From the NCBI GenBank assembly GCA_902801205.1, contig CADCHE010000011.1:52731-116730 (forward strand): a stretch of 64,000 bases of DNA, in the 5' to 3' direction. The notes beneath the pieces are model-generated. The model was given only the letters and a program-made list of their open reading frames with translations, was not told the origin of the DNA and ran no database searches. Position 1 is the stretch's first letter, and the number at the start of each line of letters is the position of its first letter. This DNA is from an uncultured Bacteroidia bacterium (lineage in GTDB: Bacteria > Bacteroidota > Bacteroidia > Bacteroidales > UBA932). Shown here piece by piece: positions 8,182-17,950 of the stretch. The translations under genes were made by a program, and so were the position numbers.

Positions 8182-10299
8182 ATGTATGTGAACGATCCAT
8201 TGGAGACGGGAGTCCAGTTCCTCCCGGGCGTAGGGCCGCGGCGCGCCGCCCTGCTGGCCTCCGAACTGTCCGTCCGGACGGTGGGGGACCTGCTGCGCCT
8301 GTATCCTTTCCGGTATATCGACCGGAGTTCCATCCTGCGGATCGCGGACGTGCGGAGCGACGCCGCCTATGTCCAGATCCTGGCGCGGGTCGTCTCTGCC
8401 GAACTGGCCGGAAAAGGCGGGAAGCGGCTCAGCGTCGTCGTCCAGGACGATTCCGGGCAGATGGAGCTGGTCTTCTTCCGTGGGGTGAAATACACTGCGG
8501 ACCGGCTCAAGCCCGGCAGTGTCTTCCTTTTCTTCGGAAAGCCTGCGGTCTTCAACGGACGCCTGAACATGGTGCATCCCGAAATCGACTTCCCGCCGGC
8601 GGAAGGGGCGCGCAGCTTCGCGGGGACACTCACCGGCGTCTATCCTTCGACGGAGAAGCTTTCCGGCGGCGGTATCACCGGCAAGGTGATGAACCGCCTG
8701 ATGGCCGCGGCCATCGAGTCCGGCCTCCCGGCCGTGCAGGAAACCCTTCCGGAATATATCCTGCGGGAGAAGGGCCTTTGCAGCCTGCGTTTTGCGCTGA
8801 AACACATCCATTTTCCGGACAGCGGAGAAGCCCTGTCCCGGGCCCGCCACCGGCTCAAGTGGGAGGAACTTTTCCTGCTGCAGCTCTCCCTCCTGAAACA
8901 GAAATACGTCCTCAGCCGTTCTGAGAACGGGATCCCGATGCCCAAGGTCGGGCCGGCCTTCAATGCCTGTTTCAACGCCCTGCCCTATGCGCTGACCGGG
9001 GCCCAGAAGCGGGTGATCAAGGAAATCCGCGCCGACCTCATGAGCGGGCACCAGATGAACCGGCTCCTGCAGGGCGACGTCGGGTCCGGCAAGACGATGG
9101 TCGCCGTTCTGTCGGCCCTCATCGCCGTGGGCAACGGCTACCAGGCCTGTCTGATGGCACCTACGGAAGTCCTTGCCCGTCAGCACTATGCAAATATTTC
9201 CCGGTACCTGGCGCCGACCGGAGTCCGCTGCGAACTGTTGACCGGTTCCGTCACCGCGGCCGCCCGCCGTCCGATCCACGAGGGGTTGCGCGACGGTTCG
9301 GTCGGGATCCTGATCGGTACCCATGCCCTGCTGGAAGACCCTGTCGTCTTCCAGTCGCTCGGCCTGGCCATCATCGACGAGCAGCACCGTTTCGGCGTGG
9401 ACCAGCGCGCCCGCCTGTGGGCGAAGGGCGCCGGCGGCCGGCCGCCGCACATCCTGGTGATGACGGCGACACCGATCCCGCGCACCCTGGCCATGACCCT
9501 GTACGGCGACTTGGATGTCTCGGTCATCGACGAGATGCCTCCGGGGCGGAAACCGGTCAAGACCATGTGTATCGGGGAAGGGCAGCGGCCCGCCCTCTAC
9601 CGGTTCATGAAGAAGCAGATCTCCCTCGGCAGGCAGGTTTTTGTGGTGTATCCGCTGATCTTCGAGAGCGAGAAAGTCGATTACAGGAACCTGGAGGTGG
9701 GTTACGAGCAGGTCCTGTCGCATTTCCCCGAGCGGGAAGGATACAAGGTGGCGATCGTCCACGGACAGCAGACGTCCGAAGTCAAGCAGTTCAACATGAA
9801 CGCTTTCGCCGCCGGCCGCGCGCAGATCCTGGTTTCAACGACGGTCATCGAAGTGGGCGTCGACGTGCCGAACGCCTCGGTGATGGTCATCGAGAGCGCC
9901 GAACGCTTCGGCCTTTCGCAGCTGCATCAGCTGCGCGGCCGCGTGGGGCGGGGCAGCGAAGCGTCTTTCTGCGTGCTGATGCACGGGGACAAGGTGTCGA
10001 AAGAATCCCGCCGCCGGCTCGACCTGATGTGTGCTACCGAGAACGGCTTCGATCTGGCGGAGGAAGACATGAAGATGCGCGGGCCGGGTGATCTGGAGGG
10101 GACGCAGCAGAGCGGCCTTCCCGTGGCGCTGAACATCGCCTCCCTCGTTCACGACGGCGACCTGCTGGCCGATGCGCGCAGTTATGCGGGCCATGTGCTC
10201 TCGCGCGATCCGGACCTTTCTGCGCCGGAGAACGCACCCGTCGCCGCGGCGCTCCAGGCGCAGCGGATCGAAGTGCGGGATTACAGCAAGATTTCCTGA
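8182..10299 (+). CDS. recG: ATP-dependent DNA helicase RecG
   Basis: The product remodels stalled replication forks and branched DNA. The 705-residue protein has the N-terminal wedge/OB region (LETGVQFLPGVGPRRA at the start) and then a superfamily 2 helicase core: Walker A GDVGSGKT (~298-305), DEQH box IIDEQHRFG (~397), motif III TATPIPRT and motif VI QLRGRVGRG. The C-terminal RecG-specific region is complete. The start is ATG at 8182; a GTG immediately upstream is also in frame, and both fall within a few bases of the predicted transcription start. It stands alone as a transcription unit, ending eight bases before the convergent pdxA. Confidence 0.97.
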   Translation: MYVNDPLETGVQFLPGVGPRRAALLASELSVRTVGDLLRLYPFRYIDRSSILRIADVRSDAAYVQILARVVSAELAGKGGKRLSVVVQDDSGQMELVFFRGVKYTADRLKPGSVFLFFGKPAVFNGRLNMVHPEIDFPPAEGARSFAGTLTGVYPSTEKLSGGGITGKVMNRLMAAAIESGLPAVQETLPEYILREKGLCSLRFALKHIHFPDSGEALSRARHRLKWEELFLLQLSLLKQKYVLSRSENGIPMPKVGPAFNACFNALPYALTGAQKRVIKEIRADLMSGHQMNRLLQGDVGSGKTMVAVLSALIAVGNGYQACLMAPTEVLARQHYANISRYLAPTGVRCELLTGSVTAAARRPIHEGLRDGSVGILIGTHALLEDPVVFQSLGLAIIDEQHRFGVDQRARLWAKGAGGRPPHILVMTATPIPRTLAMTLYGDLDVSVIDEMPPGRKPVKTMCIGEGQRPALYRFMKKQISLGRQVFVVYPLIFESEKVDYRNLEVGYEQVLSHFPEREGYKVAIVHGQQTSEVKQFNMNAFAAGRAQILVSTTVIEVGVDVPNASVMVIESAERFGLSQLHQLRGRVGRGSEASFCVLMHGDKVSKESRRRLDLMCATENGFDLAEEDMKMRGPGDLEGTQQSGLPVALNIASLVHDGDLLADARSYAGHVLSRDPDLSAPENAPVAAALQAQRIEVRDYSKIS

Positions 10300-15372: not shown

Positions 15373-16560
15373 ATGAATAAATCATTTACTGAAAGATTCG
15401 CACAGTACACACTTCCGCAGGAAGTGAAGGCGATGGGGATTTACCCTTATTACCGCCCCATCGAATCCGGCCAGGATCCGGTCGTCCGGATGAACGGCCG
15501 CGACGTACTGATGTTCGGATCGAACTCTTACCTGGGCCTGTCGGATGATCCGCGCCTGAAGGAAGCGGCCATCGAGGCCATCCGGAAATACGGCACCAGC
15601 TGTTCCGGCTCCCGTTTCCTGAACGGAACGCTGGACATCCATCTTGCCCTGGAAGAAAAACTCGCGCGACTGGTGGGGAAGGAGGAGGCAGTGACTTTCA
15701 GCACTGGTTTCCAGGTCAATCTGGGAGTCGTTTCGCTGGGATCGCGCGACGGTTACATTTTCCTGGATTCTTACGACCACGCCTGCATCATCGACGGCAG
15801 CCGCCTGTCGCACAGCCGTGTGCTCAAGTTCTCCCACAATGACTTGAGGGCATTGGAAAATAAGCTGAAAATCGCTGAAATTGATGCACCGAAACTTATT
15901 GTAGTAGACGGAGTTTACTCAATGAGCGGCGATCTTGCACCACTGCCGCAGATCCTGGATTTGGCGGAGGAATACAACGCCGCCGTGATGATTGACGACG
16001 CGCACGGCCTCGGGGTCTTCGGCCACCAGGGACGCGGGACGGCCGACCACTTCGGCGTCACCGACCGGGTGGACCTGATCATGGGAACTTTCTCCAAATC
16101 CTTCGGGTCGCTCGGCGGCTTCGTTGCCGGCGATGCCACCCTGCTCAATTACATCAAGCACAATTCCCGCTCCCTGATCTTCAGTGCGAGCATGCCGCCT
16201 GCCAATGTCGCCGCAGTCAGCAAGGCCATCGACATCATGTTGTCCGAGCCCGAACGGATCGAGCACTTGTGGGACCTGACGCGCTTCGCCCGCGAGCAGT
16301 TCGTGCGCAGGGGATTCGACTTCGGTACGACGCAGTCTCCCATTTTCCCCCTGTATGTCCGCGACATGGTCAAATGCCTGACCGCGGTCCGGGACGCACT
16401 GGACGCCGGTGTGTTCATTACCCCCGTCATTCCTCCCGCAGTACCGGAGGATTCCGTCATCATCCGTTTTGCACTGATGGCGACGCATACCTTCGAACAG
16501 GTGGAGGAGGCGATCGACAAGCTGGAGAAGATCTTCCGCCGGCTGGAAATCATCTGCTGA
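15373..16560 (+). CDS. spt: Serine palmitoyltransferase (alpha-oxoamine synthase)
   Basis: PLP enzyme condensing L-serine with a long-chain acyl-CoA to 3-ketosphinganine, the first step of sphingolipid synthesis. The 395-residue product has the alpha-oxoamine synthase signatures FGSNSYLGL, GSRFLNGTLDIHLALE, DDAHGLGVFG (Asp-x-x-His, ~210) and the PLP lysine in TFSKSFGSLGG (~240). 2-Amino-3-ketobutyrate ligase (Kbl) and BioF are the close alternatives. The N-terminal region (SYTLP-like start and YPYYRPIESG) resembles the Bacteroides serine palmitoyltransferases more, and there is no neighbouring threonine dehydrogenase or biotin gene. It is last in the rfb operon, 25 bases after rfbB. It ends before a hairpin shared with the convergent RNA gene. 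Confidence 0.88.
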   Translation: MNKSFTERFAQYTLPQEVKAMGIYPYYRPIESGQDPVVRMNGRDVLMFGSNSYLGLSDDPRLKEAAIEAIRKYGTSCSGSRFLNGTLDIHLALEEKLARLVGKEEAVTFSTGFQVNLGVVSLGSRDGYIFLDSYDHACIIDGSRLSHSRVLKFSHNDLRALENKLKIAEIDAPKLIVVDGVYSMSGDLAPLPQILDLAEEYNAAVMIDDAHGLGVFGHQGRGTADHFGVTDRVDLIMGTFSKSFGSLGGFVAGDATLLNYIKHNSRSLIFSASMPPANVAAVSKAIDIMLSEPERIEHLWDLTRFAREQFVRRGFDFGTTQSPIFPLYVRDMVKCLTAVRDALDAGVFITPVIPPAVPEDSVIIRFALMATHTFEQVEEAIDKLEKIFRRLEIIC

Positions 16561-16576
16561 ACCGCAGGCCGGCGCA

Positions 16577-16758
16577 TCCGATAAAGCAAAGAGGCTGTCC
16601 CTTGCGGGGCAGCCTCTTGTAGGTTTGACTTTCTGCAGAGGTAAGGAGTTCTGACGGAGGAGCTTTTGCTCCGGCAATCCTGCTGCCCCACGGCCTTGAA
16701 AGAGAACAAGGAGTTCCGCTTCGGCTTCCGTTAGCCTTTGCCTGGCTGATCAGAAAGT
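16577..16758 (-). ncRNA. Candidate structured non-coding RNA (~180 nt), possibly 6S-like
   Basis: There is no conserved coding gene here, but the strand has every mark of an RNA gene. It has a full-consensus promoter at 16763-16793. The 5' segment ACTTTCTG (16758-16751) is perfectly complementary to CAGAAAGT near the 3' end (16635-16628). Inside lie short hairpins: GGCT/AGCC (16736-16723), CCTTG/CAAGG (about 16710-16693) and GGAGC-AAAA-GCTCC (about 16673-16660). A GNRA-capped terminator stem with U-rich tail ends it (16619-16577). The motif GAACTCCTT occurs twice, at about 16714 and 16651. A long closing stem, an asymmetric bubble and a separate terminator recall 6S-type RNAs (for example the Rfam Bacteroidales-1 group), but I cannot confirm membership. 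The 5' end is inferred from the promoter. Confidence 0.7.
16589..16618. terminator. Terminator hairpin between spt and the candidate RNA
   Basis: Arms AAGAGGCTG (16589-16597) and CAGCCTCTT (16610-16618) pair perfectly, with an inner CCC/GGG and a GCAA tetraloop read on the minus strand. The minus strand is followed by TTTGCTTTAT, fitting intrinsic termination of the RNA. The plus side has only a weak T content, so it is a poorer terminator for the rfb-spt operon. Confidence 0.75.
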
Positions 16759-16762
16759 ACTG

Positions 16763-16793
16763 CAAAGGTACAACAATATTTTTTATCTCCAAA
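16763..16793 (-). promoter_or_regulatory. Full-consensus promoter of the candidate RNA
   Basis: TTTG (complement of 16790-16793), a 19-base spacer and TACCTTTG (complement of 16763-16770) give the textbook Bacteroidota TTTG-N19-TAnnTTTG promoter, the best in this window. It is preceded on the same strand by about 40 bases of almost pure A/T (16794-16830), like an UP element. No protein-coding gene lies downstream on this strand until far past the terminator. Confidence 0.85.
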
Positions 16794-16822
16794 TTTTTTT
16801 TCATTTTTTTTGCAAATTTTTT

Positions 16823-16966
16823 ATTTATCGTACCTAGAATAACCTACTGAAATCCATTTTTTTCTATGCGTTCTTCCGTACCTAAAGCAACGGGTGAGAT
16901 AAGGAATCCCGGCGACTCTCCAACCGCACAAATCCCACGCTTCGTGCCGCCGGGAAGGCCTTTCCA
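16823..16966 (-). other. Gene-free stretch downstream of ssb with an inverted repeat
   Basis: This stretch holds no gene that I can support. Directly after the ssb stop is an 8-bp inverted repeat (TCCCGGCG at 16907-16914 with CGCCGGGA at 16948-16955) enclosing an inner GCAC/GTGC pair. No T-run follows, so it is not an obvious terminator. The octamer CGTACCTA occurs twice on the plus strand (about 16829-16836 and 16877-16884). The rest is an A/T-rich lead-in to the RNA promoter. Confidence 0.5.
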
Positions 16967-17314
16967 TTACATGCCGTACTGCGCCGCTTGTGCTTCTTCG
17001 ACCGGTGTGACGGCGGCTGCGATGATTTCCATGTAGTACTTTTCCGCGCCGTCGTTCGCCGTGTATTTCTGAGAGCGCATCCGGCCGGTCACATACACAC
17101 AGGCGCCTTTGGCGAGGAAGTCCAGGTTGCCGATCCCTTTTCCCTCCCAGGCGGTAACGTTGTGCCAGGTGGTCTCGATGACCGCCTCGCCGTTGCGGTC
17201 TTTGTAGGCGTAGTTCGTCGCCACGGAGAAATGCGCGACCCGGCTTTCCCCGACCTTGAGAATGTTGACGTTGCCGACATTCCCGCGGATTTCGATTCTG
17301 TTCAATTGTTCCAT
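16967..17314 (-). CDS. ssb: Single-stranded DNA-binding protein
   Basis: Coats single-stranded DNA in replication and repair. The 115-residue product is a compact OB-fold SSB. It begins MEQLNRIEIRGNVGNVN and has VAHFSVATNYAYKD, ETTWHNVTAWEGK and CVYVTGRMRSQKYT, the typical Bacteroidales SSB pattern. The C-terminus (EEAQAAQYGM) lacks the acidic DDDIPF-like tip through which E. coli SSB recruits partners. An alternative ATG eight codons upstream adds residues not seen in the family, so the later ATG was chosen. It is a single-gene unit with the candidate RNA downstream on the same strand. Confidence 0.93.
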   Translation of the reverse strand: MEQLNRIEIRGNVGNVNILKVGESRVAHFSVATNYAYKDRNGEAVIETTWHNVTAWEGKGIGNLDFLAKGACVYVTGRMRSQKYTANDGAEKYYMEIIAAAVTPVEEAQAAQYGM

Positions 17315-17338
17315 AATCCAAGTTTGTTGGTTGCCCAA

Positions 17339-17545: not shown

Positions 17546-17950
17546 ATGGACGGGAAGGGGAAGAAAACGCGGAGCGTCTGCCCGGTATGCGGCGGCGCCC
17601 TGCCAGCGGGAAGGAAAGACATGCGATTCTGCTCGGTTCGCTGCAAAAGCCGGTGGCACTACTTGCGCGAAGGACGTGCGCGCGTCTTTCGCCGCAAGCT
17701 GCTCGGAACGCTGGAGCGGAACTACCGGATCCTGGATGCGCTGCTCGCGGAAGGGACGACCTCCATGACGATTCCCGACCTTGCGCAGGCGGGATACGAT
17801 TTTTCGTGCATCACCTCCTATCACAAGGTCGGGAACCGCAATGAATACCGGTGTTTCGATATCAAGTATTACCAGTCAGGAAGCCGGATCTTCCACCTGG
17901 AACGGGTCGTTCCGATCAGCCTTTCGTCGGGTCTTCCGCCTTCGGATTGA
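17546..17950 (+). CDS. Small zinc-ribbon protein of unknown function
   Basis: The 134-residue basic protein has two Cys pairs, CPVCGG (12-15) and FCSVRCKSRWHY (29-33), that should bind one zinc ion. The rest is a small globular domain with no recognised family motif (SCITSYHKVGNRNEYRCFDIKYY). Similar Cys-ribbon proteins of this size are common in Bacteroidales and are usually hypothetical. DNA or RNA binding is plausible from the zinc ribbon and basic character, but unproven. Its 3' end overlaps the convergent permease gene by 35 bases. The ATG at 17546 was chosen because the zinc ribbon lies directly after it. Confidence 0.8.
   Translation: MDGKGKKTRSVCPVCGGALPAGRKDMRFCSVRCKSRWHYLREGRARVFRRKLLGTLERNYRILDALLAEGTTSMTIPDLAQAGYDFSCITSYHKVGNRNEYRCFDIKYYQSGSRIFHLERVVPISLSSGLPPSD

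Follow-up and report, generated by a model that had tools for sequence, protein, structure and literature searches.

A predicted RNA gene behind ssb, bounded by a promoter and a terminator of its own

The stretch of DNA analysed here, 64 kb long and called the window throughout, carries an ssb-like gene followed in the same direction by a predicted RNA transcript, beyond which a gene of the aminotransferase fold approaches from the other side (Table 1). The RNA is preceded by an exact match to the pattern TTTG-N19-TAnnTTTG; this is the single exact match within the window, where 100 shuffles gave a mean of 0.04 (four shuffles with one match), in agreement with a preliminary description of the locus that had named it the window's best promoter. 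Both ends of the transcript are predicted positions, the start being set a few bases past the -7 box and the end in the T-rich, interrupted tail of the terminator. The terminator stem carries the GNRA-type cap ascribed to it beforehand, a GCAA loop, and the complementary ends that had been seen flanking the segment are present as the two strands of stem P1. These signals recur in the family of 31 sequences described below, with a match to both promoter boxes in 27 of the 31 members, the -7 box in all 31, and a comparable terminator hairpin (script score of at least 13) in 29; the two exceptions are L065, which is truncated by its contig end, and L061, which exceeds the script's mismatch limit and in which the hairpin is visible by eye. 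Together with the conservation among relatives and the covarying helices reported below, the promoter and terminator strongly support a free-standing, unannotated structured RNA gene, as the preliminary description had proposed, that is, a probably noncoding RNA that would be transcribed and terminated by signals of its own.

Table 1. Positions of the RNA gene, its signals, its predicted structural elements and its neighbours within the window.
Feature	Positions	Strand	Sequence or remark
Predicted RNA transcript, about 170 nt	16588..16758	minus	from promoter and terminator positions
Bacteroidetes-type promoter	16763..16793	minus	exact TTTG-N19-TACCTTTG
Promoter boxes	16793-16790 (-33 box); 16770-16763 (-7 box)	minus	TTTG; N19 spacer; TACCTTTG
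Terminator hairpin	16590..16617	minus	GCAA loop, then TTTGCTTTAT
P1 outer stem, 5' strand	16751..16758	minus	ACTTTCTG
P1 outer stem, 3' strand	16628..16635	minus	CAGAAAGT
P1b, 5' strand	16735..16742	minus	GGCAAAGG; partner CCTTACC 16646-16640
P1b, 3' strand	16640..16646	minus	CCTTACC
P2, 5' strand	16727..16734	minus	stem with the strongest covariation
P2, 3' strand	16651..16658	minus	
P3-P4-P5 arm	16685..16725	minus	GCC/GGC, GCGG/CCGT, CCTTG/CAAGG
P6 hairpin	16674..16683	minus	GCA-GGAT-TGC
P7 hairpin	16659..16672	minus	GGAGC-AAAA-GCTCC
Bulge, copy 1	16712..16715	minus	AACT preceding CCTTG
Bulge, copy 2	16647..16650	minus	AACT preceding CCTTACC; same module as copy 1
ssb-like gene	16967..17338	minus	Pfam SSB; upstream of the RNA
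Aminotransferase-fold gene	15373..16560	plus	Pfam Aminotran_1_2; convergent, beyond the terminator; spt-like (name from the preliminary description)

The arrangement is shared by the relatives. In 27 of 30 loci the RNA core follows ssb on the same strand at a distance of 169-285 nt; the stretches of the remaining three are too short to show ssb, and for two of these it was seen on a longer locus of apparently the same contig, the last one lying at a contig start. The direction of the downstream gene was read from the nearest of the two longest frames printed per locus, and it is antisense to the RNA in 26 of the 27 loci readable with frames of at least 150 aa (one, L087, is ambiguous, and four loci have no such frames). 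Since the next gene is convergent in 26 of 27 loci, the RNA would have no role as a leader and no gene that it controls in cis. On the far side of ssb, and divergent from it, the window encodes a small Cys-rich protein (17546-17950) that is zinc-finger-like by eye and has no Pfam match; such a protein adjoins ssb in the other RNA-bearing loci too.

Relatives and their distribution

At the DNA level, eight of the 61 genomes searched had a match, the window's own included; among the other seven, three matches were long and four, covering just 28-33 bases at the promoter end, were discarded as short. Two covariance models were used, R1 from four sequences and R2 from 31. R1 found the RNA in 20 of 200 genomes of the genus, again including the window's own, and in that genome alone among 198 genomes of the order. 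R2 matched 30 of 400 genomes of the genus, reduced to 27 on discounting three weak matches, and once more the window's genome alone among 393 of the order. The three discounted matches (L101-L103, 22.0-24.6 bits) have flanks with no match to ssb, the zinc-finger-like gene or spt, and they look coding, as judged from the frames of L101 and by eye for L102 and L103. The resulting prevalence is a lower bound, because each genome was first screened loosely and then contributed just 9-18 candidates for scoring.

A pattern scan of a collection of species genomes returned 33 stretches. Thirty of them, all Bacteroidales records, match the model, with core identities of 67-80%, and the remaining three (two from Brevibacterium, one from Gemmobacter) were dropped for having no model match. 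Many of these 30 loci appear identical with contigs from the genus search, and the two sets overlap. Twelve of the 30 records stem from samples of yak, reindeer, water deer, water buffalo, goat, roe deer or horse. No match to the pattern was found in viral contigs, and a viral origin was rejected on this ground. One metagenome-assembled genome, Horse_feces42, holds differing copies of the RNA on two contigs (L073 and L082); with a contamination estimate of 4%, this may reflect either an additional copy or a mixing of genomes in the bin.

As far as sampled, the sequence comparisons restrict the RNA to part of one genus, which we infer to be Cryptobacteroides. In a tree of one conserved protein encoded beside the 6S locus (see below), 11 RNA-bearing and 5 RNA-lacking genomes are one branch apart, the dividing branch having a support of 79/79 and occurring in 84% of bootstrap trees. 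On the evidence of this one protein in 16 genomes, the RNA-bearing genomes would form one group, and both gain and loss of the RNA fit such a tree.

In 29 ssb-like loci of RNA-negative genomes, the unfiltered model found no copy of the RNA, apart from a single R1 match of 16.5 bits (E 0.14, locus L035) that was taken as chance. The zinc-finger-like gene is still beside ssb in 18 of these 29 loci, and the 11 RNA-negative stretches that were inspected have other sequence, often a reading frame, after ssb. Three RNA-negative loci (L032, L033 and L039) have a frame that is lipoprotein-like by eye behind ssb, at the place usually taken by the RNA, and in another locus without the RNA (L038) a CRISPR-like array of regular repeats, likewise recognised by eye, lies downstream of the ssb-like gene.

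Covariation and the predicted fold

The 181-nt strand has a folding energy of -68.5 kcal/mol, compared with -54.7 (sd 4.2) for shuffled sequences (z -3.3; none of 200 shuffles as good). In the proposed fold, the RNA would close through the outer stem P1 and continue as a P1b-P2 stem into a four-way junction, whose arms would be the long P3-P4-P5, the short P6 hairpin and the variable P7 hairpin.

The fold was examined in an alignment of 31 rows, 24 of them distinct, which was fitted to the model structure and is hence biased toward pairing, and in which 98.3% of cells are paired. Changes on both sides of a pair occur in 9 pairs, against 4.0 in shuffles, and in 33 cells, against 7.2, neither value being reached in any of 500 shuffles; sliding the 3' partner by one to three columns leaves a paired share of at most 51%. 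The number of additional standard pair types stands out less, 28 of the 500 shuffles being as high. A separate MAFFT alignment of 20 sequences agreed with this fold: its consensus contains 29 pairs, and in 7 of these both partners have changed. The element is thus conserved and its helices covary, which is the outcome that the preliminary description had proposed to look for in an alignment of relatives.

Support is distributed unevenly over the helices. P2 has changes on both sides in five of its seven pairs, with 96.4% of cells paired. All six pairs of P1b are invariant and paired in 100% of cells, and along the P3-P4-P5 arm 97-99% of cells are paired, with one pair changed on both sides in P3, one in P5 and none in P4. 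Because changes on both sides number zero, zero and one in P1b, P4 and P5, respectively, covariation says little about these three helices. P1 was assessed on 23 distinct pairs of leader and tail (L065, cut by its contig end, was excluded): the mean energy of duplexes between a leader and its own tail is -9.6 kcal/mol, that of swapped, dissimilar combinations -6.7, and in a permutation test on 15 representatives none of 20000 permutations did as well. In four of the 23 distinct rows (L070, L078, L082 and L092) P1 is not better than most swaps. The P6 loop is of the GNRA type in the relatives read (GAAA, GCAA or GCGA) and is GGAT, hence non-GNRA, in the window. P7 is constant in position and differs among relatives in sequence and register, and when folded in isolation 3 of 18 distinct P7 segments do not yield a hairpin. 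Minimum-energy folds of the 23 distinct cores contain both P1b and P5 in 15 cases and lack one or both in eight.

A bulge-and-helix module used twice

A doubled GAACTCCTT motif had been pointed out earlier and supposed to expose C/U-rich single strands. The doubling stands; the exposure does not, since both CCTT parts are base-paired, the two CCUU-bearing helices being paired in 100% and 99% of cells and only the AANN bulges left free. What is doubled is one module, an AANN bulge between helices followed by CCUU paired with AAGG, with one copy in the P1b-P2 stem and the other in the long arm. A bistable fold in which the two AAGG/CCUU helices exchange strands was rejected, this alternative being less stable by 9-29 kcal/mol in every one of the 23 distinct cores.

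Among the 24 distinct rows, the two adenines of each bulge copy are at least 95% conserved. The same level is attained by 12 of the 50 unpaired columns, nine of them A, and no conserved unpaired run longer than 2 nt was found in the 24 distinct core rows (leader and tail were judged by eye). The hairpin loops vary while isolated adenines stay conserved. With conserved adenines in runs of at most two and with variable loops, tertiary or protein contacts are therefore favoured over an antisense seed.

Comparison with known RNA families

No Rfam family reached its gathering score in the window. This includes the Bacteroidales-1 RNA (RF01693), against which a check of the locus had been suggested: its model gave no match at the gathering score in the window, nor any up to E 10 in 16540-16850. 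Bacteroidales-1, which appears in the accessible text of PMC2864571, is likewise a structured RNA of Bacteroidales, and differs in that the ssb-linked RNA has no match to its model. The STAXI motif also occurs near ssb-type genes; as described in the same partial text (PMC2864571), it consists of pseudoknots in two or three repeats, whereas here, on a comparison by description, we see a single junction RNA with a promoter and a terminator. The small SRP RNA of bacteria (RF00169), another small structured RNA, was rejected as an identity because the genome's sole match at E of 1 or below, at 47.9 bits and above the cut-off, is at a separate locus (G000:C13:77777-77875). A literature search, assessed by title and the start of the abstract and with subscription journals mostly outside its range, contained no such RNA among the matches listed, and among those matches there was no work on small RNAs of the genus's mostly uncultured bacteria.

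6S RNA binds the RNA polymerase holoenzyme and templates pRNAs; its fold is rod-like with a large central bubble, and some bacteria possess two 6S loci. The preliminary description had offered a 6S-type RNA as one possibility for the present locus, and the two are alike in size range, in being standalone genes, here with a promoter of their own, and in having complementary ends and a terminator. For Bacteroides, the accessible text of PMC7366714 reports a 6S RNA together with its product RNAs. The Rfam models for 6S (RF00013) and 6S-Flavo (RF01685) gave no match anywhere in the window's genome at E 10. RF01685 had matches in 51 of 247 genomes of the order, none above the cut-off, and these share a pattern unlike the ssb-linked RNA. 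A home-made Bacteroidales 6S model, R3, was built from 18 of 20 loci fetched among these sub-threshold matches, and it found a match in 19 of the 21 genomes on which it was tried, two of these being represented among its training rows; within the genus it matched 15 of 17 genomes (the misses being G022 and G023), or 14 of 16 when the window's genome is left out. Run with filters off, R3 had no match to the ssb-linked RNA in 7 loci, and gave 118 and 105 bits for two training loci.

In the window's genome, a separate locus on the minus strand at about 10025-10114 of G000:C18 (L140) probably encodes the 6S RNA. R3 matches it weakly and in part, at 27.4 bits (E 0.047), but the neighbouring proteins are those seen beside it in relatives, and one of these proteins is 84-88% identical to its counterpart in the ten other RNA-bearing genomes. 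RF00013 and RF01685, the Rfam 6S models tried, thus miss this genome's likely 6S RNA. Given a separate, syntenic 6S locus and the failure of R3 to match, the ssb-linked RNA is therefore almost certainly something else. Moreover, covariation gives a branched junction within a closing stem, a four-way junction instead of a rod with a central bubble, and the RNA is found in just 27 of 400 genomes of the genus. The 6S proposal did not hold up, and we now give it a negligible chance. On these comparisons, the ssb-linked RNA matches no Rfam family and is not a 6S RNA.

Discussion

A role in trans is possible in general, and the reading that we favour, with chances approaching even, is a trans-acting folded RNA that binds protein. 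It is favoured because the conserved unpaired positions are mostly A and come in runs of one or two, and because the loops are variable. Such an RNA would work as a folded scaffold, possibly holding two copies of a protein through its twin bulges, and would either form an RNA-protein particle or titrate the bound protein, with no antisense seed exposed.

We consider it unlikely that the RNA is instead a trans-acting antisense sRNA, in which the P5 or P7 loop, or the P1-terminator tail, pairs with mRNAs. Its size, promoter and terminator would suit such an sRNA, and GibS, a trans-encoded sRNA of Bacteroides thetaiotaomicron, acts in this way according to the accessible text of PMC7366714. GibS also resembles the ssb-linked RNA in its intergenic position, its own transcript and its intrinsic terminator, as predicted for the RNA described here. 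However, GibS is described in that text (PMC7366714) as relatively unfolded and conserved mainly in its single-stranded 5' part, whereas the ssb-linked RNA is compact and lacks a conserved seed: sequence and length differ among relatives in the P5 loop, the P7 loop and the tail, the CCUU strands lie within helices, and the longest unpaired run conserved at 95% is 2 nt across 24 distinct cores.

A ligand-sensing aptamer transcribed alone, which would change what becomes of its own transcript or of a factor bound to it, is an improbable reading. A compact junction with conserved adenines would be in keeping with it, as would the best Rfam match at lax thresholds, to c-di-GMP-I-GGC (RF03167), which has 17.9 bits and an E value of 0.068 and is set against a gathering score of 59. 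We rejected a c-di-GMP riboswitch because this match is below threshold and absent, up to E 5, from the three relatives scanned; and the RNA is no leader of this type, ending in its own terminator with the next gene convergent in 26 of the 27 readable loci, which argues against control in cis.

The association with ssb could also mean that the RNA takes part in ssb regulation, as a processed 3' end or as an element acting on the stability of the ssb transcript. Its place behind ssb in 27 of 30 loci, and in two of the other three, is what such a role would predict, but a promoter of its own stands between ssb and the RNA, and the pair of zinc-finger-like gene and ssb is present in RNA-negative genomes without it. 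We give this reading a slim chance.

A short peptide gene or a dual-function RNA is very improbable. The earlier statement that the segment has no coding gene holds in that the window's RNA has no ATG and no complete start-to-stop frame, but frames called mechanically do cross it, namely one of 84 aa (16804-16550) whose ATG is upstream of the -33 box, and others that start at a TTG inside the RNA and run antisense through the neighbouring gene. Further points in favour of a peptide are a stop-free frame spanning the RNA in 24 of 31 rows, an ATG in most relatives, mostly located in P6, and a mild unevenness of variable columns by position modulo 3 (13, 17 and 21 of 38). Against it, the frames that follow from the relatives' ATG codons are unequal in length, the core lengths of 109, 112, 114, 115, 116 and 118 nt shift the frame, and the helices covary. 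We infer, with a small reserve, that the RNA is noncoding.

A chance intergenic fold or a functionless remnant, which an occurrence limited to part of one genus might suggest, is contradicted by the compensatory changes and the conserved promoter and is scarcely credible.

It is uncommon for a standalone RNA to conserve structure to this extent, and several solved examples proved to be RNPs, regulators or ribozymes. The ssb-linked RNA combines covariation and a compact predicted fold with a narrow distribution in bacteria of gut and rumen, most of them uncultured. As a protein-binding RNA, it may, though we hold this fuller picture to be doubtful, represent a new RNA family of one Cryptobacteroides group that forms an RNP, or titrates a dimeric protein, in a manner unlike the described bacterial RNPs, and whose place next to ssb would reflect a part in DNA or stress metabolism.
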